48,104 nt of DNA from Candidatus Polarisedimenticolia bacterium (GTDB taxonomy: Bacteria; Acidobacteriota; Polarisedimenticolia; Gp22-AA2; AA152): assembly GCA_036004685.1 (NCBI GenBank), contig DASYRE010000021.1, forward strand, positions 1-48,104, written 5' to 3'. The notes under the pieces are model-generated. The model ran no database searches and was not told where the DNA came from. It saw only the letters and a list, made by a program, of their open reading frames with translations. Positions 11,917 through 48,104 of the stretch are shown in pieces. Made by a program: the position numbers and the translations under genes. The number at the start of each line of letters is the position of its first letter. Within the stretch, counting starts at the first letter, position 1.

Positions 11917-11944
11917 AGTATACACCAACGATTCGACTTGTCAA
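11917..11944 (-). promoter_or_regulatory. Near-consensus sigma70 promoter of the GTPase-arcC-argF operon
   Basis: Minus strand: a perfect TTGACA (11939-11944), 16-base spacer, TATACT (11917-11922, 5/6), then a G+C-rich CCGCGCT discriminator. The TGA stop of the upstream response regulator (11941-11943) is nested inside the -35 hexamer. Predicted start near 11910. TATACTCCGCGCT is almost identical to the -10/discriminator of the asnB promoter at 44148. Confidence 0.85.
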
Positions 11945-13383
11945 TTTTCGCCGGGGGCGATCTGCAGGTCGCGGAGCTTGCTGAGCAGGGTCTTGTAGGA
12001 GATCTGGAGAAGGGTGGCGGCGCGCGTCTTGTTGCCGCCGGCTTCATCCAGTGCCAGGCGGATCTTCTCCTTCTCGGCGAGGCAGGCGGCCCGGGCGGCG
12101 ACCTCGGCGAGCGACCCCTCCAGCCCGACCAGCTCCCCCATCCGCGGCCCGTCTTCCACCGGAGCGGGCCCTGCCAGGCTCAAGTGCGACGCCCGGATCT
12201 CGTCTCCCTCGCAGAGGATCACGGCCCGTTCCAGGGCGTTTTGCAGCTCCCGGATGTTCCCCGGCCACGGGTACCGGTTGAGGACCTCCATCGCCTCCTC
12301 GGAGACCCGCACCGGGACGCGCCGCTTGGAATCGGCCGAGAACCGCCGGGCGAAATGGGAGGCGAGGATCGGGACGTCCCCCGGACGCTCCCGGAGCGGC
12401 GGGATCGTCACCGGGAAGACCGACAGCCGGAAATAGAGATCCTGGCGGAACGTCCGCCCCTCGACAAGCCGCTTGAGATCCCGGTTCGTGGCGGCCACCA
12501 GGCGGAGATCCACCGATCGCGTGTCCGTCCCCCCCACCCGCTCGAATTGCCGCGCTTCGATGACCCGCAGGATCTTTCCCTGGAGCGCCGGGGAGAGATC
12601 CCCGATTTCGTCCAGGAAGAGCGTGCCGCCGTCGGCCATCTCGATCTTCCCTTTGCGCGCCGCGCCCGCCCCCGTGTAGGCCCCCTTCTCGTGGCCGAAC
12701 AGCTCGTTCTCGAGCAGCGTCTCCGGAATCGCCGCGCAGTTGATGGCGAAGAAAGGCCCGGGCCGGCGGGGGCTGAGGTGGTGCAGCGCCCGGGCGAAAA
12801 GCTCTTTCCCGGTCCCCGATTCCCCGGTGAGCAGGACGGTCGCGTCGGTCGCGGCCACTTTCCCGAGCTGCGCGAGGGCTTCGCGGATGGCGGAGCTTTC
12901 GCCGACGATGCGCGGGAATTCGAGCTCCTCGGCGAAGCGCTCCCGCAGGAACGAATTCTCGACCGACAGATGGCGATGCTCCAGGGCGCGCCGGATGAGG
13001 GCGAGGAGATGATCGGCGTCGACCGGCTTCTCGAGGAAATCGTAGGCCCCTTCCTTCATCGCCGCCACGGCGTCCTGGATGGTGCCGAAGGCGGTCATGA
13101 CGATGACTGGCAGAGAGGCGTCGGAGGAGCGGGATTCCCGCAGGAGCTTGAGTCCGTCGGCGTGCGGGAGTCGCAGATCGGTCAGGACGAGAAGGAACCT
13201 CTCGCGCCCCAGTCTCTCCAGGGCCGCCGCGCCGTCGGAGCAGGCCTCCACCTCGTACCCTTCGTCCTCGAGCGTCTTCTGGAGGACGTTCCGGAGGCCT
13301 TCCTTGTCTTCCACCAGGAGAATCCGGCTCTTCAGCGCGGCAACGGTCGAGGCCGGCGGAAAACTGGGCTCGGGCGAGCTCAT
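11941..13383 (-). CDS. Sigma54-dependent NtrC-family response regulator (PilR-like by context)
   Basis: A 480-residue transcription activator in three parts. Receiver (about 20-135): phospho-acceptor D69 in LVLTDLRLPHADG, conserved T97 and K119. AAA+ sigma54-interaction domain (about 155-390): Walker A GESGTGKE at 187-194, GAYTGA loop at 234-239 (the sigma54-contacting GAFTGA), Walker B FLDEIGDL. C-terminal Fis-type helix-turn-helix (about 435-475) ending KTRAATLLQISYKTLL. Start overlaps the upstream gene as ATGA. It lies downstream of a pilin operon whose promoter matches sigma54, and a histidine kinase lies on the other side, so I infer it is the local activator, comparable to PilR. The recognition sequence is not known; see the inverted repeat at 20033. 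Confidence 0.93.
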   Translation of the reverse strand: MSSPEPSFPPASTVAALKSRILLVEDKEGLRNVLQKTLEDEGYEVEACSDGAAALERLGRERFLLVLTDLRLPHADGLKLLRESRSSDASLPVIVMTAFGTIQDAVAAMKEGAYDFLEKPVDADHLLALIRRALEHRHLSVENSFLRERFAEELEFPRIVGESSAIREALAQLGKVAATDATVLLTGESGTGKELFARALHHLSPRRPGPFFAINCAAIPETLLENELFGHEKGAYTGAGAARKGKIEMADGGTLFLDEIGDLSPALQGKILRVIEARQFERVGGTDTRSVDLRLVAATNRDLKRLVEGRTFRQDLYFRLSVFPVTIPPLRERPGDVPILASHFARRFSADSKRRVPVRVSEEAMEVLNRYPWPGNIRELQNALERAVILCEGDEIRASHLSLAGPAPVEDGPRMGELVGLEGSLAEVAARAACLAEKEKIRLALDEAGGNKTRAATLLQISYKTLLSKLRDLQIAPGEN

Positions 13384-14003
13384 TCCGGATTGCTTTCCAG
13401 GAAGCTCGCCAACTCCTGGCGCGCCGCTTCGAGCTCCTGGGCGGTCTTGCGGATCTCGTCATCGACCCTGGACATGCGTTCGGGGCCCGACAGGCCGTCC
13501 TCCTCGGCCTTCTCCGCCTCCCCCTCGACGACGCGCGGCACGTACGGATTAGCGATCGAAAGGCGCTTTTGCTGCAGGCTCTTCAATCTCCCCTCGAGAT
13601 CCAGGATGCGCTGCTGCATTCCCGCCATCTTCTCCTGCCGCCAGCGCGCCCTCTCCTGCTTGTCGTGAAGGCTTTTCAGGGGATCCTCGGACGGCGGGGC
13701 GGGCGCCGGGCGCGGCGCGCTCGCGGCGGCTCCGGAATGGAACTTCTTCAGGTCTTCGTCGGTGAAGGCGAGCGGCTTCTCGGCGGGCTTTTTCCCTCCC
13801 CCCTTCCCTTTCGCGGCCGCCGGGCGCGTCGCGGGCCGACGGGCGGGATGGGACGGGGCCGTCTGCTTCGTCGCGGATGTCTTTTCAGCCTTCTCCTCTT
13901 TTTCGGCCTCGGGCATGGATCGGGTGGCCGCGGGAAGCCCGGTCAGGAGCAGGCTCATCGAAAGGATCATCACGGGGGTGATGAAGCGGGGCGGTTTCGC
14001 CAT
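13380..14003 (-). CDS. Secreted or membrane-anchored coiled-coil protein, unknown function
   Basis: I do not recognise a family. The 207-residue product has an N-terminal hydrophobic segment (residues about 8-27, ITPVMILSMSLLLTGLPAA) like a signal peptide or anchor. An Ala/Pro/Lys-rich low-complexity stretch (about 33-110) follows, then a predicted coiled coil in two blocks (about 112-150 and 170-205; e.g. MQQRILDLEGRLKSLQQKR). It overlaps the response regulator start as ATGA, so the two are coupled. It begins only about 15 bases after a strong terminator that closes the pilin operon. A periplasmic pilus-assembly or sensory accessory is conceivable, but nothing in the sequence proves it. Confidence 0.75.
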   Translation of the reverse strand: MAKPPRFITPVMILSMSLLLTGLPAATRSMPEAEKEEKAEKTSATKQTAPSHPARRPATRPAAAKGKGGGKKPAEKPLAFTDEDLKKFHSGAAASAPRPAPAPPSEDPLKSLHDKQERARWRQEKMAGMQQRILDLEGRLKSLQQKRLSIANPYVPRVVEGEAEKAEEDGLSGPERMSRVDDEIRKTAQELEAARQELASFLESNPE

Positions 14004-14086: not shown

Positions 14087-15994
14087 TTACATGTCATTCT
14101 CCCAGCTCGTCGGAATGACCCGGGGAAGCTTCAGGGACGGGGGCGGCCAGCACTTGTCCTTCAGGCAGGTGTCGAACCAGATGTCGGGCGTGCCCGCCGG
14201 TCCGCCGCCCGCCTCGACGATCCCCTGTTTGGTGATGATACTGCCGAAGAACATTCCGTTCCCTTTGGCGTTCCAGTAGCCACTGTTATAGATGACCCCC
14301 GCCATGTGGACGGTGCCGTTCACGTTAGGGCCTTTCGCGGCGCGCCCGGCGGTGGCGGTGTTGATCTTGGCGAATGTGGGATGGGGCATCGCCGTCGGAT
14401 CGGTGGTGGGGTAGGTCAGGTCGAGAAAAGTCTCGCCCGACTGCCAGCCGTCGGTCCCGTTGCTCTCGATGTAGGGCTCTCCGGGCGCGTACATGACGCG
14501 CGTGGGGGGCGAGTTCCCGAGTCCCTGGCTGGAGAGCGTGCCGGCGTTCATGAAGATGAAGCCGGCCGAGTTCCACCCCGAGGTGAAGGTCACGTCCGCC
14601 GTCAGGTTGTCGAAGATTCCGTCGGCGTTCGTATCCACCGGAGCCTGGCCGTTGCTCGTATCGAAGAAAAAGAGCCCGGTCTTCCCCAAGGTGGCGTCGT
14701 TGATGTTGATCAGGGGCGCGCTGGGATCGCCGTTGAGCTGGAAGTTCCCGCCCGAAACGTACTTGTAATAATAGGCGTTCTTGAGCCCCGAAAGGGCAAT
14801 CTGGCGCCAGAAGTTGTAGTCGAGATCGGGGCAAGGAATCGTCGAGAATCCCAGGTTCTGGAAAAGGTTGCTGTGATCGTTGTCGGTGCAGTTCGCATCG
14901 GAGGCGCTCGTGCACGAGAACCCGAAAGGTTGTTGGGCTTGATTCCCCAGAGGAGTCCCGGAGCCGTCGAGGATCTGCCCTCCCGCTTTCGATCCGAACC
15001 AGGGATCCTCGATCGAGTTGTCGTTGGCGTTGATGAACGAGGTCAGCTCCGCGGTGGTGATGTGGGCGTCGGGGAACCCGGGGGCGCCGGAATCGTCGTA
15101 GGGAAAGCCGCTGTCCATCTTGTTGTTCATGGAGGAGGTATTGAACTGGAAGTTGCTCGCGGCGTTGATGAAGCCCCAGTGGACGGCGAGATCTCCCGAG
15201 GTGCTCAGGAAGTTGCACGAGGTGAGTGGTCCGAAATCGCCCGGATACGGGACCTCGGAGAGGACCGCTTTCGTGACTCTCTGCGCCACCTGGCGCTCCT
15301 GCGCCGAGCCGGGATACAGGAAGACGCCCGCGGTGACTTTCACCGTGGCGATGCCGAAGCGCACCTTCTGGCCGCTCAAGTCGATGATCGGCGGGCTGAA
15401 CACCTCGATCCGCGTGATACGGGCCCGCTTGTTGGGGGAGGGATAATTCGGGAAGAGGGTGCCGTTGAGATCGTTCAGGAAGGTGGCCTGGGCGCCCCCG
15501 GCGGCGGCGTCGATCCGCAGGTCGGGCCCCTCGTCCCCGGCATGCGACTCCTCCCCGAGGAACGACATGGCGTTGCTGCCCCGGTAAGCCTTCTCGAAGA
15601 GGTCGTCCGTCCCGTCGCGGTAGATCGGCTTGGCGAGATCTCCGGCGATCCCCTTGACGTTCGCGGTCCCGGCGTTGGCGTCGTGATCGTACCAGCGGAT
15701 GGCGCGGTTCACCTGGGCCGGAGTCGGCACCTTGTAGCCGGTGCCGGTCGGATCGTTGAACCAGTTCAGGACGGTCCGCGCCCCCGACTCGGCCACGAAG
15801 AGCGCCTGCTGCGCGTTCAGCTGGTTCTCGGCGATCTGGCTCTCCGTCTGGGCGAGCATGAGATAGGAAATCCCCAGAAGCGTCAGGATCACCATGATCA
15901 GGACGGCGATGAGCAGCGCCGATCCTCTCTCCCGGCCGCCCCCTGGCGGCGGGGAGATTTGGGCCGTTCGATGGGAACGCGCTGGGCTTCGCAT
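14087..15994 (-). CDS. PilX-like type IV pilus assembly protein
   Basis: The 635-residue product begins with a basic head and then RGSALLIAVLIMVILTLLG, the PilX-type start in which the usual Gly-Phe-x-x-x-Glu cleavage motif is replaced by GSALL. This is followed by the typical ISYLMLAQTESQIAENQ helix that packs into the pilus. The rest is a large soluble domain with repeated Gly/Asn/Asp-rich beta-like segments and a few cysteines. PilX proteins of well-studied pili are around 200 residues, so this one carries a big exposed domain. ATG at 15994 with GGGGGGAG upstream. The frame runs on upstream for 600 codons, but only as a shadow of pilW. Last gene of the fimT-pilV-pilW-pilX unit. Confidence 0.83.
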   Translation of the reverse strand: MRSPARSHRTAQISPPPGGGRERGSALLIAVLIMVILTLLGISYLMLAQTESQIAENQLNAQQALFVAESGARTVLNWFNDPTGTGYKVPTPAQVNRAIRWYDHDANAGTANVKGIAGDLAKPIYRDGTDDLFEKAYRGSNAMSFLGEESHAGDEGPDLRIDAAAGGAQATFLNDLNGTLFPNYPSPNKRARITRIEVFSPPIIDLSGQKVRFGIATVKVTAGVFLYPGSAQERQVAQRVTKAVLSEVPYPGDFGPLTSCNFLSTSGDLAVHWGFINAASNFQFNTSSMNNKMDSGFPYDDSGAPGFPDAHITTAELTSFINANDNSIEDPWFGSKAGGQILDGSGTPLGNQAQQPFGFSCTSASDANCTDNDHSNLFQNLGFSTIPCPDLDYNFWRQIALSGLKNAYYYKYVSGGNFQLNGDPSAPLININDATLGKTGLFFFDTSNGQAPVDTNADGIFDNLTADVTFTSGWNSAGFIFMNAGTLSSQGLGNSPPTRVMYAPGEPYIESNGTDGWQSGETFLDLTYPTTDPTAMPHPTFAKINTATAGRAAKGPNVNGTVHMAGVIYNSGYWNAKGNGMFFGSIITKQGIVEAGGGPAGTPDIWFDTCLKDKCWPPPSLKLPRVIPTSWENDM

Positions 15995-16005
15995 GATCTC
16001 CCCCC

Positions 16006-18801
16006 TCACTGGGTCACGACGGAAAGGTCTTTGGCGATGACCTGGAAGGTGCAGCTTCCGCCGGTGCTGGTGCTGTCGTGGAAGCGGAACCGGATGGTGA
16101 TCGTCTCGCCGGAGTTGCCGCTCGAGCTCACCAGCGAGTTGGTGAAATCGAGCTTCACCTCCAGCGGGCTGGTGCTGTCGTTGGCCTTGTCCAAGAACTG
16201 CGGGAACGAGAAGTTGGCCGAAGCGGGCGACGTGGCCGCCGGCGACCAGGTCTTGGTGGCCGGAGAGATGATCGACGGGTAGAAGAAAGCGTTGAGGGCC
16301 GGATTGAACCCCAGGGTGTTCGTCCAGGTCACGTCGATCCCGTCGATGAACAGATCCTTGGCGGCGTTGTTGATGATCTGCCAAGTGAGATCGCTCTTCT
16401 TGTCGCCGCCCGCCGTTCCCGTCGTCGGGCTGAGGTTGGGGTTCGCCGGCGAGATCTGGCAGGCCAGAACCGAGTCGACGATCAGCGTCTGGGTCCGGAA
16501 GTTGACGCAGCCGTTGCTGTTCTCCACCTCGATGTAGAGGGTGTAGGTCCCCGGAGGAGCCGTCGAGGCGTTCCAGCTCGGGAAGACGAAGGGATACGAA
16601 GTGGCCGTCTGGTCGTAGACGTCGGAGCCGCCGGTGATGCTGGGGATCCGGATCCGGGCGCGCACGTAGGTGTCGCCTCCGCCGCTCACCGAGAGGTTTA
16701 ACGGCACCGATCCCGCCACGTGGGTCGCGTTGGGGGGAGAGAGCGACGGCGTTCCGTTGAACGTGCAGGTCGTCTCTTGGGGTGACGAGAAATATGAGAA
16801 GTTGGGGCAGGCGTCCGACGCCCGCACCATATAGTAATAGGTGTTGTTCTGGATGCGCAGGTAGTCCTTGTCGGACGTCGTGAGGTTGTGGACCAGCGTC
16901 ACGGTCGGGGACTGGACAGGGCTGCCGGGCACGGGCGAGAAGGCGCCCGAGCTCGGCGGCATCCCGACGGTGCCGGCGGCGTAGACCACCTCGTAGCTGG
17001 TCACGGAGACGGTCCTGCTCTGGACGTCCACCATGACGGGGGCCCAGGTGATGGTCACCGTATTCTGGCTCGTCCGCCCGACGTTGATCCCGCTCGGGGA
17101 CATCGGCGGGATGGTGGTGTCGGAGGAGCCGGCGATCGCCGGCGAGTAGGCGCCGATGTTGCCGCACAGATCGGCCGCCGCCACTTTGTAGTAGTAGGTC
17201 TGGCACTGCGAGATTCCAGTGTTGTCGGTGAACTGCAGGTTGCCCGGCGAGAGCGCCCCCTCGTTGGCGAGAGGAGTCCCGCCGGGAGTGAAGCCGCTGA
17301 CGCTGCCTCTCCAGACCCGGTATCCCGCCAGGTCGCGGATCATGGGCGCGTCGGCGTCGGTGCAGCCGGTCGGCCCGGTGGCGTTCGTGGCCACCGCATC
17401 CCAATGGACCTCGATGTCCCCGTCGTGCGCCGGATGCGTGGCGCTCCCCTTCTGCGTCGCCCACCCCGAGGCGGGAGCCGCGGGCGTCGTGGTGTCGGTG
17501 ATCGTTCCGCTGGAGGCTGACCCGGAGAACAGACCCACGTTGCCCGAGGAGTCCTTGGCCTGGACCTTGAAATACCAGGTGCTTCCCTGAGTGAAGTGCG
17601 CTGCGTCGCGCACGTAGGAATGCGTCACGAAGCTGACCACGCCGTTGTCGTAATGCGGGTACGGAGTGTTCGCGACGTACGGGGTGGCGGCGCTGGTCGC
17701 CCCGTAACCCACGTTGTAGCTGGTCACCAGCTCCGAGGCGGGGCGGCCCGTGTAGTTCACCAGCACGCCCTGGCAATGACCGCCGCACAGCGTGGGCGCC
17801 GGAGAGACCTGGCCGGGCGGGGTCGTGTCGGAGTCCTGCATGCCGCTGCGCCCCAGGTTCTCAGGCGTCACGTCGGAGGTCAGGTCGAACTTGCGGTAGT
17901 GGGCGGTGCTGCTCGTCGAGGCTTCCGCCGGATCGAGGTATTTCAGATCGGGATCGGGCGTCATCCCCACCAGGTCGACGACGATGCGGCGGATGCGGGA
18001 GCGGACCGCGATGTTTGGATCGCCGCCGCCGATGTCGTCGGAGGCGTCGGACGGCGTGTTGGGGCTGACCAGGTTGCCTTGGTCGTCGTAGTATTTGAAG
18101 GTCATCGACCTGATGTTGTCGGCGACCGGCTGCTTCACGAAGAACGAGGCCGCCGTCGGGTTGGCGCCGGAGCTGTAAGTCGTCATGTCGTTGTTCAGCG
18201 ATACGCGGTACAGCGTGTAGGGCGGGTCGTCCTCGACCAGCGCGACGTTTCCCAGCCTCACGGGCTCGGCCGTCCCGTCCCGCGGCCCGACGCTGATGTT
18301 CGCGGATTGGTAAACGATCGTGGTGCGGGTCGGATTGTCGATGTCGGCGTTGAACGTCATGGTCGATCCGCCGGTCCAGCCGGATTTCGCCAGGACGTAC
18401 GCCACGATCTCGTCGTTCCCCGTGCTGACGACGTTGTAGGCGCCCTTGATGCTCGCTTCGGGAGCCGTGCTGAGGGTCGCGTCCTCGAAGTCGAGATCGG
18501 CGCGCAGGACCACGGCCGTGTCGTACGCCGCTTCGATTTGCTCGTCATTGCGGCTCTTGCTGCCGTCGGGGTTGTAGTTGTAGCCCGCGTTCCGGAGGTC
18601 CGAGAGGACTCGATCGAAGGCCGCCCGGGTGTTCTGCTGCTGATCGGTGAAGTTCTGTCCCGCCTTGTAGGAGTTCTGGGCGGCGGTGTAGAGAATGAAC
18701 GCCACGGCCGCCGCGATGGCGAAGATTGCCGAAGCGACGAGCATCTCGACGAGCGTGAAGCCGCCCTCTCCGGTTCGTTTCCTGCGATCGCTGCGAAGCA
18801 T
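16006..18801 (-). CDS. Very large PilW-like minor prepilin with fibronectin type III-like modules
   Basis: 931 residues. The N-terminus GEGGFTLVEMLVASAIFAIA is a class III signal: cleavage after Gly, Phe+1, Glu+5, then the hydrophobic assembly helix. Residues to about 310 resemble PilW-type minor pilins. Beyond that come at least three modules with the FN3 F-strand pattern: WYFKVQAKDSSGN (about 408), YYYKVAAADLCGN (about 536) and YYYMVRASDACPN (about 656), each about 125 residues apart, then further beta-rich Pro/Thr/Ser segments to the end. Usual PilW proteins are about 200-350 residues. I infer that this is a pilus-tip or surface-exposed adhesin-like subunit; ligand unknown. It starts 45 bases after pilV. 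Confidence 0.85.
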   Translation of the reverse strand: MLRSDRRKRTGEGGFTLVEMLVASAIFAIAAAVAFILYTAAQNSYKAGQNFTDQQQNTRAAFDRVLSDLRNAGYNYNPDGSKSRNDEQIEAAYDTAVVLRADLDFEDATLSTAPEASIKGAYNVVSTGNDEIVAYVLAKSGWTGGSTMTFNADIDNPTRTTIVYQSANISVGPRDGTAEPVRLGNVALVEDDPPYTLYRVSLNNDMTTYSSGANPTAASFFVKQPVADNIRSMTFKYYDDQGNLVSPNTPSDASDDIGGGDPNIAVRSRIRRIVVDLVGMTPDPDLKYLDPAEASTSSTAHYRKFDLTSDVTPENLGRSGMQDSDTTPPGQVSPAPTLCGGHCQGVLVNYTGRPASELVTSYNVGYGATSAATPYVANTPYPHYDNGVVSFVTHSYVRDAAHFTQGSTWYFKVQAKDSSGNVGLFSGSASSGTITDTTTPAAPASGWATQKGSATHPAHDGDIEVHWDAVATNATGPTGCTDADAPMIRDLAGYRVWRGSVSGFTPGGTPLANEGALSPGNLQFTDNTGISQCQTYYYKVAAADLCGNIGAYSPAIAGSSDTTIPPMSPSGINVGRTSQNTVTITWAPVMVDVQSRTVSVTSYEVVYAAGTVGMPPSSGAFSPVPGSPVQSPTVTLVHNLTTSDKDYLRIQNNTYYYMVRASDACPNFSYFSSPQETTCTFNGTPSLSPPNATHVAGSVPLNLSVSGGGDTYVRARIRIPSITGGSDVYDQTATSYPFVFPSWNASTAPPGTYTLYIEVENSNGCVNFRTQTLIVDSVLACQISPANPNLSPTTGTAGGDKKSDLTWQIINNAAKDLFIDGIDVTWTNTLGFNPALNAFFYPSIISPATKTWSPAATSPASANFSFPQFLDKANDSTSPLEVKLDFTNSLVSSSGNSGETITIRFRFHDSTSTGGSCTFQVIAKDLSVVTQ

Positions 18802-18846: not shown

Positions 18847-19347
18847 CTAGTATCGAATCGCCTGGAGCGAAACGCTCTTCGACCTGCCCAGCTCGTTCCA
18901 GGAGACGGTCACCCGCACCTGCAGCGCCTGGGAGTTGCCCATGTTCAAGGGCGAGGCGCCCCCCAGCGGGGTCACGTCGATGAACGCTTTGGCCTGCGGG
19001 CCGAGCTTGCTGCCGATCTCCGCCTGCCACTGGGTGGCGTTGTTGCCGGACGTGAAGGTATTGACCGACACCGAGGTGGAGCTGTCGGTCCCTCCGAAAT
19101 AGGCGTAGGTGTCGGAATACGACTTCTGCTCGATCCGTTCCATGATCTCGTGACTGATGGCGGCGGCCGTCGTGGTGCTTTTGCCGGTCTTGACCTGCTT
19201 GCCACCCATGATGAACAGGGAGGCGATCGAGATCAGGACCGTGGCCAGCAACCCGAGCGCGAGGGTGACCTCGATCAGGCTGAATCCTCCCTCCCGCCGA
19301 GGCTCGGCGCCGCGTCCCAAGACCTCGCGTGGATCCGGCATGCGCAT
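18847..19347 (-). CDS. PilV-like minor prepilin
   Basis: 166 residues. Prepilin signal REGGFSLIEVTLALGLLATV (Gly-1, Phe+1, Glu+5) with a 25-residue hydrophobic helix, then a short globular domain ending QVRVTVSWNELGRSKSVSLQ, a PilV/PulJ-like strand pattern. Start chosen at ATG 19347 because GGGGAG lies eight bases before it; a second ATG two codons later is possible. Upstream in-frame sequence is a shadow of fimT. Processed by the prepilin peptidase encoded at 21981. It would join the minor-pilin priming complex with the fimT, pilW and pilX products. Confidence 0.87.
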   Translation of the reverse strand: MRMPDPREVLGRGAEPRREGGFSLIEVTLALGLLATVLISIASLFIMGGKQVKTGKSTTTAAAISHEIMERIEQKSYSDTYAYFGGTDSSTSVSVNTFTSGNNATQWQAEIGSKLGPQAKAFIDVTPLGGASPLNMGNSQALQVRVTVSWNELGRSKSVSLQAIRY

Positions 19348-19361
19348 CGTCGTAGCTCCCC

Positions 19362-19853
19362 TCACGGCGTCACCTCGCTCTTCGCCGTGGTGATCCGCCC
19401 CACGGTGTTGAGATCGATCGTCCACTGGTGGGCCACCTGAGCGCTGACCATGTTCTTCAGGGCGATCGTGGCCGCCCCCGTCGTCACCGTCCCGTTCGTC
19501 GTGAAGGTGATGGTCGCGGGGTTGGCGGTCACAAATTGGACGGGAGAAGGCAGAACGATCGTCCGGAGCCTTCCCTTGGAATCGGTCCACGAGTAGCTGC
19601 CCGCGGCGGTGTCGATCGTCAGGCTGGTGGCCACACGCGTCGACACGGCCACCTGCCGGGCGGCGCGCAGCGCGTCGGTCAGCTCCAGGGTCGCCGACCG
19701 GACCTTGTAAGCCCGGTACGATTCGGCGAACGCCGGACCGACGAAGGTGATCATCAAAGCTGCCAGGGCGAGAACGGTCAGCATCTCCGTGATCGAGAAA
19801 CCGCGCTCCCCTCTTGCGTCGCGCCTTACGGGATCGATTCTCTTTCGGCACAT
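19362..19853 (-). CDS. GspH/FimT-type pseudopilin
   Basis: 163 residues with prepilin signal RGERGFSITEMLTVLALAAL (Gly-1, Phe+1, Glu+5), then the GspH/FimT-type globular domain: LTDALRAARQVAVSTRVATS followed by a beta-rich end. FimT/GspH proteins act in minor-pilin complexes that prime pilus assembly, and some bind DNA. AAGGAG lies six bases before the ATG. It is the first gene after the sigma54 promoter, with a leader of about 47 nt. Confidence 0.88.
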   Translation of the reverse strand: MCRKRIDPVRRDARGERGFSITEMLTVLALAALMITFVGPAFAESYRAYKVRSATLELTDALRAARQVAVSTRVATSLTIDTAAGSYSWTDSKGRLRTIVLPSPVQFVTANPATITFTTNGTVTTGAATIALKNMVSAQVAHQWTIDLNTVGRITTAKSEVTP

Positions 19854-19910
19854 CGGCTGCTCCTTGCGTGGCGCGCTCGCGCCGGTTCCGATTCCTCGCC
19901 TTCCGAAGCC

Positions 19911-19926
19911 AGCAAGGGGGATGCCA
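19911..19926 (-). promoter_or_regulatory. Sigma54 (RpoN) promoter of the fimT-pilV-pilW-pilX operon
   Basis: Minus strand ATGGCATCCCCCTTGCT: the -24 element TGGCA and the -12 element TTGCT, with the invariant GG and GC exactly 10 bases apart as required. It is in the 255-base gap between the sensor kinase and fimT, correctly oriented, with a start near 19900. No comparable sigma70 hexamer pair stands out in the gap. The presence of a sigma54 activator gene next to the operon supports it. Confidence 0.85.
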
Positions 19927-20032
19927 TGGAGCGTCGGGGGCTTGACGCGGCTAGATCTGCTCAGGCGGAAGGGGATCGAGGTGGGCCGTCCGGGATCTTC
20001 ACGGCACGGGGTGAGGCACCGGCCCCTGAGGG

Positions 20033-20049
20033 CGTTACAAAACGTAACG
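20033..20049. promoter_or_regulatory. Inverted repeat at enhancer position, candidate activator site
   Basis: CGTTACAAAACGTAACG: perfect 6-bp arms (CGTTAC/GTAACG) around a 5-base spacer. Its centre is about 140 bases upstream of the predicted sigma54 start, within the usual range for NtrC-family upstream activating sites. It is A/T-richer than its surroundings. Assignment to the regulator at 11941 is inference. Confidence 0.55.
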
Positions 20050-20108: not shown

Positions 20109-21977
20109 TTAGGCGTTCTCCGCAGCCCGCGGGAGGGGAAGGCGAATCTGAAAGCGGGTGCCCCGCCCGACCTGGCTGGCCACGTCGACCGATCCGTCGT
20201 GGCTGACGATGGTCCTCTGGACCAGGGGAAGCCCCAGCCCGCTCCCCCCGGGGCGGGTCGTGAAGAAGGGGGTGAAGATGTGGGGGAGCACTTCGGGCGG
20301 TATTCCCGGGCCGTTGTCCGACAGCTCGATGCTAAGGTGATTCTCCTCCACCCTGCCGCGGATCGACACGCGGACTCCCTGGCCGTTCGCCGCCTGGGCG
20401 GCATTGCGGATCAGATTGTGAAAAGCCTGCTTGAGGAGGGGCTCGTCCCCCGGCACGGCCGGGAAATCTCCCTCGACGAGGACCCGAATCGGGCGCGTCC
20501 CCTGGACCTGCGACATCTCCCGCGCGAGATCTTCCAAGAGCCCTCTCAGATCCACCTCCGAGAGATTCAGCGGCGCCGGCCGCGCGAACTGGAGGAAATC
20601 CTCGACCACCTTCGAGATTCCCTGGACCTCTTTCAGGATCGAGGCGGCCAGCTCCCGCTCCTCCCCTTCCGAGCGCCGGCTGATGAGCCGGGCGTACCCC
20701 TGGATCGTGGCGAGCGAGTTGCGGAACTCATGCGCGATCCCGGCGGAGAGTTCGCCGAGCTGGGCGAGGTTTTCCTTGAGGGCGACCCGATCCCTCAGGC
20801 TGCGGATTTCGGTGAGATCGGAGAGCAGGCAGACGAGACCGCGGACCTCCCCGCCGCTCCCGTGAACCGGGGACAGTCCGACGCCGAGATGGATTTCTTT
20901 TCCGTCGGGCCGGGCATGCGGAACCATCTCCCGGCTGCGTGGCTGCCCGCGCCGAATCCCTTCGAGGAGGAGCTTCCCCAGCCCCTCCTCCGCGCCGAAG
21001 AGATCCGACGCCAGGCGCCCCGCCACGTCGGCCCGGCTCATCCCCAGAATCTGCAGCGCCGCCGGATTCACCAGGCGGATCCGTCCCTCGCGGTCGAGCG
21101 TCATCATGCCGCTGTTGAGACTCTCGGCGACGCTCTCCGCCGGAAAGTCGTCTTCGCGGGCCGCGCCGCGCGTTTCCTTCAGCCGGTGCAGCTCGAGCTC
21201 CTGTCCTTTGAGCTTCTCCAGCACCGCCTGAAAGGAGGCCACCAGAAAATCAGGCTCCGTCCCGGGGTCGCCGACGGATTGACGGTCGAGCGCTTCCGCC
21301 AGCCGTGCCTGGTCGGCGGTGGCCATCAGTTTTCGGTAAGGCGCGAGAATCCAACGGGCGAAGAAAAAGATCAGGACCGCCAGCAGGCTCAATCCGGCGG
21401 CCTGGATGGCGGAGAGAATCCGCACGCTGCGCTCCACCCTGGCGAGGTTCTCGGCCCGATCCTCCACCTTGATGATCCCGCTAAGCCGCCCGGCCGCGTC
21501 CAGCAGCGGGCGATAGCCGGTCATCGTCGCGTAGGCGATGCCGGCATCGGAACGGAGCGAGGAGAGCACCGTATTGCCGGTCTCCAGGTTCCTCCGTCCC
21601 GCCGGCCCGAGCGAGTCCCAGCCGGGATCGCGCATCCGAACCCTCCCGACCAGGGAGGAGACCAGGACCCTTCCGCCCGGGTCCAGCAGCTCCAGCGAGA
21701 CGAGCCCGTGGGCCGTCGCGATCCGGGCGAACCGGCTCTGGCTGAACGGCGACCCGACGATCGCTTCGCGCTCCCGGGGGAGGCCCGATTCCCCGACCTT
21801 GAGGTCCGATTCCACCGTCTCCGCGGCCAGGCCGATCCTCTGGCGTACCTCTTCGAAGATCGCGTTGCGGCTCACGACCAGCAGGTGAAAGCTCACGTAG
21901 ATGGCGATCGCCAGGAACAGGACCAGCAGCCCCAGGAAGGTCTTGATCTTTCCTTCGTAGGAATTCAGCCGGACCAT
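20109..21977 (-). CDS. Membrane sensor histidine kinase with PAS domain (PilS/NtrB-like)
   Basis: 622 residues. Transmembrane segment 1 at about 13-35 and segment 2 at about 187-210 enclose a periplasmic sensing domain of about 150 residues. A PAS domain follows (about 282-395, LDREGRIRLVNPAALQILGM), then a HisKA domain with H416 in SAGIAHEFRN and an ATPase domain with HNLIRNAAQAA, DNGPGIP, FTPFFTT and GSGLGLPLV. The HEFRN form of the H-box is typical of kinases paired with NtrC-type regulators. The gene follows pilD after three bases and directly precedes the sigma54-controlled pilin operon. I infer it phosphorylates the regulator at 11941. PilS itself has six membrane spans, so this is an analogue rather than a strict match. 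Confidence 0.92.
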   Translation of the reverse strand: MVRLNSYEGKIKTFLGLLVLFLAIAIYVSFHLLVVSRNAIFEEVRQRIGLAAETVESDLKVGESGLPREREAIVGSPFSQSRFARIATAHGLVSLELLDPGGRVLVSSLVGRVRMRDPGWDSLGPAGRRNLETGNTVLSSLRSDAGIAYATMTGYRPLLDAAGRLSGIIKVEDRAENLARVERSVRILSAIQAAGLSLLAVLIFFFARWILAPYRKLMATADQARLAEALDRQSVGDPGTEPDFLVASFQAVLEKLKGQELELHRLKETRGAAREDDFPAESVAESLNSGMMTLDREGRIRLVNPAALQILGMSRADVAGRLASDLFGAEEGLGKLLLEGIRRGQPRSREMVPHARPDGKEIHLGVGLSPVHGSGGEVRGLVCLLSDLTEIRSLRDRVALKENLAQLGELSAGIAHEFRNSLATIQGYARLISRRSEGEERELAASILKEVQGISKVVEDFLQFARPAPLNLSEVDLRGLLEDLAREMSQVQGTRPIRVLVEGDFPAVPGDEPLLKQAFHNLIRNAAQAANGQGVRVSIRGRVEENHLSIELSDNGPGIPPEVLPHIFTPFFTTRPGGSGLGLPLVQRTIVSHDGSVDVASQVGRGTRFQIRLPLPRAAENA

Positions 21978-21980
21978 CCC

Positions 21981-22811
21981 CTAGCCCCCGTATCCCGCGA
22001 GCGCGGCATACCATCGCAACAGCGCCGGACCGGCGGTGAGCGAGAGAAACGCGCCGACCGCCAGGAACGTCCCGAACGGCAGCGCCTGCTTCATCCCGTA
22101 GCGCGATAGGGCCACCCCCGAAAGTCCCCAGACCGAGCCCAGCACCGAGCCGATGAGGATCGTCAGCAGCAACAGCTTCCACCCCAGGAAGCCGCCGACC
22201 ATCGCCAGCATCTTCACGTCGCCCATCCCCATCCCCTCGACGCGCTCTCCGGCGGGCTTGCGGAACTGCGCGAGGAGATAAGCCTCGCCGACCAGATACG
22301 GGATGGAGGCCCCCAGCAAGATTCCCAGCGCCCAGCTTCCCCAGGCCGGAGGTTCAAGGATTCCCCACGCGATTCCCTCGGTCCCTCCCAGGAGGGGGAC
22401 GGCGGCGGAAAGAATGATTCCCGGGTAGGTGATCCGATCGGGAAGGATCTGGTGCTCGGCGTCGATGAAGGCCAGCGCGATCAAGGCCCAGGTGAAGGGA
22501 AGGTAGACCGCCAGGGGGACGGAGAGGCCGAACAGCAGGAACAGCCCGCCGGAGCAGAGCCCCGAGAGCAGCTCCACGAAGGGATAGCGCTGCGAGATCG
22601 GCGTCCGGCACGACCGGCATCGCCCTCGCAGCAGAAGAAACGAAAGCATGGGGACGTTGTCCGCCGCCCGGATGCGCGCGCCGCAGGCAGGGCATGCCGA
22701 AGGGGGGAAGACGATCGACGCGCGCCGGGGGACCCGGTGGATGACGACGTTGAGGAAGCTCCCGATGATCGAGCCCAGGAGGAAGAACGCCAGCGCCAGC
22801 CAAAGCTCCAT
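21981..22811 (-). CDS. pilD: Prepilin peptidase / N-methyltransferase (type IV leader peptidase)
   Basis: Integral membrane aspartic protease that cleaves prepilin leaders after Gly and methylates the new N-terminus. 276 residues: N-terminal GSIIGSFLNVVIHRVP, a two-CxxC zinc cytoplasmic loop (C40, C43, C65, C68), catalytic D117 in IDAEHQILPD and D198 in the GxGD-type motif GMGMGDVK, with about seven or eight membrane spans. ATG 22811 overlaps the upstream stop by one base (TGATG). Its substrates probably include the four prepilins at 14087-19853. The gene is co-transcribed with the sensor kinase. Confidence 0.95.
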   Translation of the reverse strand: MELWLALAFFLLGSIIGSFLNVVIHRVPRRASIVFPPSACPACGARIRAADNVPMLSFLLLRGRCRSCRTPISQRYPFVELLSGLCSGGLFLLFGLSVPLAVYLPFTWALIALAFIDAEHQILPDRITYPGIILSAAVPLLGGTEGIAWGILEPPAWGSWALGILLGASIPYLVGEAYLLAQFRKPAGERVEGMGMGDVKMLAMVGGFLGWKLLLLTILIGSVLGSVWGLSGVALSRYGMKQALPFGTFLAVGAFLSLTAGPALLRWYAALAGYGG

Positions 22812-23656
22812 CAGCGCGCCTGGAGAAGGAGGCGCGACTCCGAAGCGACGCTTCCCGTGCGGGGATCGTAGCGATAGTCCCGACCGTCGGGATCGAGCGG
22901 TAGCTCGCTGAGGAGCCCGGCGCGCACCAGGTCGGCCAGCCTCAACGGAAGCCCCCCCCGCCGCTGCCGGTAGCTGGCGACGCCGCTCTGCAGCGATTCC
23001 AGATCCAGGTCGATGCGCAGATCGTGCACGTGCAGCCAGCTCACCTGGCGGACGTAGTCCGAATCGGCCGTCTGGTAGATCTCGGACCAGTAGCGCAGCG
23101 AGGTCGCCCGGTCGCCGAGACGGTTGAACATCTCGGCATAGAACCGCTTGGCCACCGCGGGGGCGCCCGGTATCCGGACCACCTTTTGGAAGTAATCGCG
23201 GGCCCGCTGGGGGTCGTGCAGCGTGTTGTAGCAGAGAAACCCCGCCGAGAAGGCCAGGATCCACTCCTGCGGGTTCCTGGCGATCCCGTCGTCCAGAAGG
23301 CGCAGCGCCAGATCGTGCCTCCCGGCCTCCACCGACATGATCATCGATCCCACCAGGTAGGGATCGACGTAGTGAGGATCGAGCTCCTCGATGACGTGGC
23401 GGTAGATCTGCTCCAGGTAATCGTAGCGATCGGACGCCTGGTAGTTGGAGTAGTACTGGATCGACCAGAGGTAGATCATATCGGCCATGAGATTGCTGTA
23501 GCCGAAGGTCACCGCCTTGAGGTACTTGCCGCTCGGAAGGTACAGGAGATGCTGCCCGGGCGCCTGCTCCGAGCGCAGCGCCTCGACCTTCCGGGCCGAG
23601 ACGCCCGTGAGGGCCGCGGCGAGCAGAAGGAGGAGGGTCAAGGCGAAGCGCGGCAT
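22811..23656 (-). CDS. Secreted protein with TPR-like helical repeats
   Basis: 281 residues with a clear signal peptide (MPRFALTLLLLLAAALTGVSA). Conserved-looking aromatic-rich region YLKAVTFGYSNLMADMIYLW, then helical pairs of TPR character (e.g. DPYLVGSMIMSVEAGRHDLA, the DPQRARDYFQKVV segment, and AKRFYAEMFNRLGDRATSLRYW). The C-terminal LPLRLADLVRAGLLSELPLDPDG resembles the end found in some pilus-biogenesis and general-secretion proteins. I know of similar proteins next to ABC transporters and pilus genes, but no proven function. It is flanked by the permease (1-nt gap) and pilD (1-nt overlap), so it is probably periplasmic and linked to one of these systems. Confidence 0.75.
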   Translation of the reverse strand: MPRFALTLLLLLAAALTGVSARKVEALRSEQAPGQHLLYLPSGKYLKAVTFGYSNLMADMIYLWSIQYYSNYQASDRYDYLEQIYRHVIEELDPHYVDPYLVGSMIMSVEAGRHDLALRLLDDGIARNPQEWILAFSAGFLCYNTLHDPQRARDYFQKVVRIPGAPAVAKRFYAEMFNRLGDRATSLRYWSEIYQTADSDYVRQVSWLHVHDLRIDLDLESLQSGVASYRQRRGGLPLRLADLVRAGLLSELPLDPDGRDYRYDPRTGSVASESRLLLQAR

Positions 23657-47978: not shown

Positions 47979-48104
47979 TTAGGTCTGCGTACCCTGCGGC
48001 CACTGGAAGAACTGGCCGTTGGCGAACAGGATGTCGCAGTTGAAGTCGTTCGTCATGCCGCCCGTGACCGCGCTGGCGATTCCATCCTTCGCCAGGCTGG
48101 TCAG
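47979..48104 (-). CDS. C-terminal 41 residues of an unidentified protein (cut by window edge; possibly a pilin)
   Basis: An open frame enters from the right edge and ends at TAA 47979-47981. The visible end includes GIASAVTGGMTNDFNCDILF and FANGQFFQWPQGTQT, polar with one Cys and several aromatic residues. I do not recognise it with certainty. A compact C-terminus like this, followed at once by a strong terminator and next to pilin and glycan genes, would suit a major type IV pilin, but no N-terminal prepilin signal is in view. Codon use looks like the neighbours, and the frame is supported by its exact stop-terminator spacing. Confidence 0.6.
   Translation of the reverse strand: MTSLAKDGIASAVTGGMTNDFNCDILFANGQFFQWPQGTQT

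Follow-up and report, generated by a model that had tools for sequence, protein, structure and literature searches.

Minor pilins prime pilus assembly and form the tip. The locus described here raises the question of whether the minor pilin genes of a Polarisedimenticolia bacterium share the control of the major pilin gene pilA or stand behind a switch of their own. A stretch of 48,104 nt (the window) was analysed together with the rest of the genome and with related genomes. The regulatory region lies upstream of fimT, the first gene of a fimT-pilV-pilW-pilX operon.

Genes and sites at the minor pilin operon

All genes of this locus lie on the minus strand. The fimT/GspH-type minor pilin gene (19362..19853) matched Pfam GspH, and its match to the NCBIfam ComGD/GspH-like model was below the cut-off. 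It is followed by a pilV-like gene (18847..19365) and a pilW-like gene with a long C-terminal region (16006..18801), both assigned by profile matches, and by a pilX-like gene (14087..16033) with a PilX_N match below the cut-off. A protein of unknown function, g13380 (13380..14003), is encoded between pilX and the gene of the NtrC-type activator EBP2 (11941..13383). A sensor kinase gene (20109..21977) precedes fimT, and the prepilin peptidase gene pilD (21981..22820) is directly upstream of the kinase. An earlier note on this DNA had the operon flanked by a kinase (20109) and a sigma-54 activator (11941), and these coordinates were correct. It had also placed kinase and regulator in different transcription units. 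A strong terminator-like hairpin after pilX (14054-14026, minus strand; 13-bp stem, T-rich tail) makes this plausible in the window genome; the hairpin was not found at the loci of eight relatives.

The exact sigma-54 pattern TGGCAYN5TTGCW was matched once in the 48-kb window, by TGGCATCCCCCTTGCT at 19926-19911 (minus strand), with GG-N10-GC inside the pattern and 0 mismatches; the runner-up had 2 mismatches. This score was reached in 0 of 2000 dinucleotide shuffles of the upstream region. The 3' end of the site is 57 nt from the fimT ATG (19853). The 47 bases given earlier roughly equal the stretch between the predicted start of the transcript (about 19900) and the ATG, which is preceded by a Shine-Dalgarno sequence (AAGGAG). 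RpoN, named earlier as a check, was found encoded in the genome. With the consensus matched in full, the site conserved in relatives and rpoN present, 19911-19926 is identified from its sequence as the -24/-12 sigma-54 promoter that the earlier note had described. The whole genome contained 15 exact matches, all of which ended in T and none in A. The pattern with 1 mismatch was not enriched genome-wide (114 versus 121 in the control), and that count was therefore left out of the evidence. Exact and near matches were clustered on contig C51 (G000:C51:8973-39797), some as divergent pairs, and an activator gene is on the same contig.

The second site is the palindrome CGTTACAAAACGTAACG (20033..20049, listed without a strand), with the full form CGTTAC-AAAAC-GTAACG. 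Its centre at 20041 is 129 bp from the -12 element and 188 nt from the fimT ATG; it is 141 bp upstream of the predicted start, which refines the earlier figure of about 140 bases upstream of the start. Both sites fall in the interval bounded by the kinase stop (20109) and the ATG of fimT. The exact palindrome was a single copy in the 3.84-Mb genome, and thus also in the window, and was reached in 0 of 2000 dinucleotide shuffles. A larger regulon served by further copies was considered and rejected, since there were none in the genome and the pattern with 1 mismatch was no commoner than its reversed control. The palindrome is most likely an enhancer of the fimT promoter, and is treated as a putative one.

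Conservation and spacing in related genomes

fimT was sought in 60 relatives, all metagenome-assembled genomes, and the upstream regions were compared. Loci within a family are related and their counts are not independent, so that families are the fairer unit. Before fimT, 20 loci had a sigma-54 site (0-2 mismatches) with an upstream dyad; they belong to eight families (f1, f2, f5, f6, f7, f9, f11, and f12). In shuffles, the p value of the promoter ranged from 0 to 0.05, and that of the palindrome, taken in its gap window, from 0 to 0.006. Among 41 genomes of the class, the gapped pattern of dyad and promoter occurred in 8, once each and always at fimT, and the reversed control gave 0. The gene order was glycosyltransferase, ABC transporter, TPR protein, pilD, kinase, the two sites, fimT, pilV, pilW, pilX, (g13380), and activator. 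It was retained in every locus long enough to span it.

The distance from the dyad centre to -12 was 125-130 bp in 17 of the 20 loci, 135 bp in f7, and 139-140 bp in f5 and f9. The gap between palindrome and promoter was 103-118 nt in 19 loci; the remaining one (f9) had an overlapping GTCAC-N5-GTGAC dyad at 117. The distance from promoter to ATG was loose (15-90), as was that from kinase stop to dyad (-14 to 64, once 880). The near-fixed gap, set against these loose distances, indicates that the dyad belongs with the promoter. This bears on a further explanation, in which the kinase transcript would carry the palindrome as a 3' element, such as a hairpin or terminator, and the palindrome would be no part of the promoter. 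The palindrome does come soon after the kinase stop in most loci. However, its spacing follows the promoter and not the kinase stop: in G024, where a gene is inserted after the kinase and 880 nt separate kinase and palindrome, the gap to the promoter is still 103. The palindrome also has no T-run and is absent where the promoter is absent. A 3' element was rejected on this spacing and is the most improbable of the explanations considered.

The dyad variants were often symmetric, with TGTTAC/GTAACA in f2 and f5, TGTCAC/GTAACA in f6, TGTAAC/GTTACA in f12, and GTCAC/GTGAC in f9. Weak dyads were seen in f7 and in a single f12 genome. Loss of the repeat with the promoter kept, which the earlier note had named as evidence against its proposal, was seen in part: three genomes of the window organism's own family had 1-2 mismatches in a degenerate left arm, with the right arm and the position retained. 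Conservation was best in the sister family f2, where the dyad (at most 1 mismatch) occurred once per genome in 8 of 8 genomes, at fimT. All 7 f2 loci compared had a second half-site, GTAAC or a variant, whose distance downstream from the first right arm was exactly 29 bp. Four fimT loci without an adjacent kinase gene (G015, G034, and G038 of f6; G022 of f10) had no dyad. No sigma-54 site was present at the three f6 loci, and G022 had only a weak one outside this arrangement. The EBP2 orthologue was absent from these four genomes as well.

Probable regulators of pilA and of the minor pilins

The window ends on its right with the C-terminal part of pilA (47982..48101, minus strand), and contig C41 probably carries the N-terminal part at its end. 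On that contig, an activator and a multi-TM kinase are encoded about 4 kb ahead of a pilA cut by the contig end. Since the cut pilA matches the C-terminus at the window end, C41 and the window are probably neighbours, with a PilS/PilR-like pair just beyond the right end of the window. In three relatives (G004, G005, and G007), pilA, PilR, and fimT are on one contig. Exact or near-exact sigma-54 promoters, with TGACA-N5-TGTCA upstream, precede the pilA genes of the class. From this linkage and the different dyad, PilS/PilR would appear to control pilA.

The earlier note had carried the PilS/PilR logic over to the minor pilins and had suggested a search for CGTTAC-N5-GTAACG before pilA. The repeat was absent there, and in the pilA upstream regions of the class GTTAC-N5-GTAAC was never found within 1 mismatch. 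The window kinase and EBP2 neither adjoin pilA nor share its operator. The kinase beside pilA has at least 4 TM helices, while the window kinase has 2 and lacks the PilS-type multi-TM N-terminus. The recognition helix of the PilR-like activator on C41 is SFRSFRYFAKKY, and EBP2, with ISYKTLLSKLRDL, does not have the PilR-type helix. The window pair was therefore ruled out as PilS/PilR by the separate PilS/PilR-like genes and the different pilA dyad, and the earlier proposal was not upheld on this point. The same two observations suggest that two sigma-54 circuits, each with its own operator, are probably present in this one locus. PilS/PilR might also control the minor pilins, with the fimT dyad as a divergent PilR site; the PilR family offers a precedent, and pilA shares the sigma-54 logic and a similar operator position. 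This is very unlikely, since no pilA dyad came within 1 mismatch of GTTAC-N5-GTAAC, and the pilA dyad persists in genomes without the fimT dyad, the window-type kinase, and EBP2.

The window kinase has a periplasmic domain between its two TM helices, followed by PAS, HisKA, and HATPase domains. AlphaFold (pLDDT 80.6) gave the periplasmic domain a PAS/Cache-like fold, with CitA, WalK, KinD, and similar sensors as the best structural matches. EBP2 has the composition of an NtrC-type response regulator, with a receiver, an AAA+ domain with a GAFTGA-type loop (GAYTGA), and a Fis-type HTH. It was rejected as an AtoC, NtrC, or ZraR equivalog, since its NCBIfam scores were below the curated cut-offs (465/714, 425/558.6, and 396/760 bits, respectively). 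The genome encodes 26 full sigma-54 activators. Orthologues of EBP2 (E < 1e-150), set well apart from the next activator, were found in 19 genomes and were absent from the f4 genomes.

Both sites are conserved and keep their spacing, the gene order is kept, the sites are lost together with the kinase gene, and pilA has a dyad of its own; together these findings argue for a dedicated circuit. The sigma-54 promoter and the enhancer would probably drive fimT-pilV-pilW-pilX through a kinase/EBP2 pair of their own, beside PilS/PilR. RpoN-RNA polymerase would sit at -24/-12 as a closed complex. The kinase would phosphorylate EBP2 in response to its periplasmic PAS/Cache-like sensor. An EBP2 dimer would bind the GTTAC-N5-GTAAC dyad, and a ring would then assemble and, through a DNA loop of about 130 bp, remodel the polymerase. 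We infer the dyad binder, the phosphotransfer, the activation, and the signal.

The assignment of EBP2 as the binder was examined across families. Its HTH is retained in f1, f5, f6, f11, and f12 and is unique among the activators of the window genome; it diverges in f3, f7, and f9. In all 6 f2 genomes having EBP2 (L240, L237, L236, L238, L241, and L245), the protein ends after the AAA+ lid, without an HTH, and the perfect fimT dyad nevertheless persists in this family. An HTH profile search of f2 gave no replacement HTH of the EBP2 type. A gene beside EBP2 that might replace the lost HTH was also considered, and none was seen on three contigs. In f2, either another activator would bind the dyad, or the EBP2 assignment would be wrong everywhere. 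A second minor pilin gene set follows the HTH-less activator at three f2 loci (L331, L332, and L334), and none was noted in the window.

The dyad was also sought beyond the class. A GTDB-wide scan for the dyad, 90-120 nt, and a promoter gave 65 matches, many of which are expected by chance. The acidobacterial matches with a kinase upstream and a pilin downstream had gaps of 107-108, and one of 118. An independent match in another acidobacterial group (L088, gp7) comprised the 3' end of a kinase gene, the dyad, a sigma-54 site, and fimT, with more pilin-like genes and a possible PilY1 downstream. In candidate division CSSED10-310 (L111:3068-3201), the dyad and a sigma-54 site precede a PilX-type pilin gene. 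In eight loci of other phyla (L089, L110, L113, L116, L123, L129, L131, and L146), GTTAC-N5-GTAAC and a sigma-54 site lie 1-226 nt after an activator gene, whose product has a recognition helix of the RKNLWEKRKRWG type, RKxLW[EQ][KR]R. This dyad and this helix may form an operator code for the activator type. In three Fibrobacter loci (L100, L127, and L133), this dyad, together with a sigma-54-like site, stands before an apparent sigma-70-family sigma factor gene.

The loci of other phyla speak for a general role of the dyad as an operator of activators, and they also raise EBP3 (C54:104144) as another candidate binder. EBP3 has AAA+ and HTH domains and no receiver. Its recognition helix (LGINRKTLLEKRKRYGIP / RKTLLEKRKRYG) resembles RKNLWEKRKRWG, and its HTH is closer than that of EBP2 to the type adjoining the dyad in other phyla. 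The sites would then be as described, with the dyad bound by another activator such as EBP3, perhaps in a mixed ring to which EBP2 brings phosphorylation control. The perfect dyad of f2 beside an HTH-less EBP2 fits this, as does the presence of EBP3 in f1 and f2. On the other hand, the EBP3 gene is not linked to this locus, and no sigma-54 site with an N5 dyad adjoins it. The EBP2 HTH is kept in five families, and EBP2 and the kinase track the presence of the dyad. Binding by another activator is thus considered unlikely. For f2 itself, it is a tentative and rather doubtful suggestion that activation is split, with HTH-less EBP2 (receiver and ATPase) and another activator, for example EBP3, as the DNA-binding partner in a mixed complex at one promoter per genome. 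The reading that EBP2 binds the dyad is weakened by the f2 loss, the divergence in f3, f7, and f9, the degenerate left arms, and the EBP3 helix. EBP2 was kept as the most likely binder, since five families retain its HTH and its occurrence, like that of the kinase, follows the dyad.

The separate sigma-54 operators for major and minor pilins are the main point of interest. In these soil and groundwater Acidobacteria, minor pilins behind their own switch could allow tip and fibre to be turned on separately, and a dedicated circuit, if true, would let the cell set the tip:fibre ratio. Operators and their partners are cleanly predicted for a phylum in which almost no genetics has been done, and the f2 case makes it directly testable how HTH-less activators find promoters.

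Comparison with known systems

In the literature outside subscription journals, no sigma-54 activators dedicated to minor pilins were found, nor was this operator. The PilS/PilR-pilA system of Pseudomonas and others shares with the present locus a kinase and NtrC-type regulator, a sigma-54 promoter, type IV pilin genes, and an upstream enhancer. Here, however, the predicted target is the minor pilin operon, and the kinase has 2 TM helices and a periplasmic PAS/Cache-like domain, unlike multi-TM PilS. The HTH is different, the putative operator is GTTAC-N5-GTAAC and not TGACA-N5-TGTCA, and a PilS/PilR-like pair is present separately beside pilA.

FimS/AlgR shares with this locus the placement of minor pilins under a two-component system other than that of pilA. 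AlgR is not known to be a sigma-54 activator, whereas an NtrC-type activator and a sigma-54 promoter are predicted here. The minor pilin operon of P. aeruginosa is under FimS/AlgR (PMC5979040). In commensal Neisseria, Nps/Npa controls pilE, and other pilus genes were reported not to be under RpoN (PMC6528607). This system shares the two-component pair, RpoN-dependent pilin expression, and an upstream activator sequence; the target here would be the minor pilins.

Activators without a DNA-binding domain are known, such as CtcC (PMC7482065), and FlgR acts without DNA binding, as cited in PMC3037356. In Borrelia, Rrp2 is assisted by BosR, a second protein that binds DNA (PMC3037356). No operator of the fimT-dyad kind is described for these cases, whereas f2 keeps a perfect dyad. 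NmpR of Myxococcus xanthus, which serves an oxygen-utilization regulon, uses NtrC-type sites GCGCA-N5-TGCGC that are 14-15 nt apart (PMC11841059). The dyad sequence and the regulon differ from those here. An NtrC-type regulator, sigma-54, and the 5-N5-5 dyad form, which was tested for NmpR, are shared, and the spacing of its sites is similar to the 14-nt spacing to the second half-site in f2.
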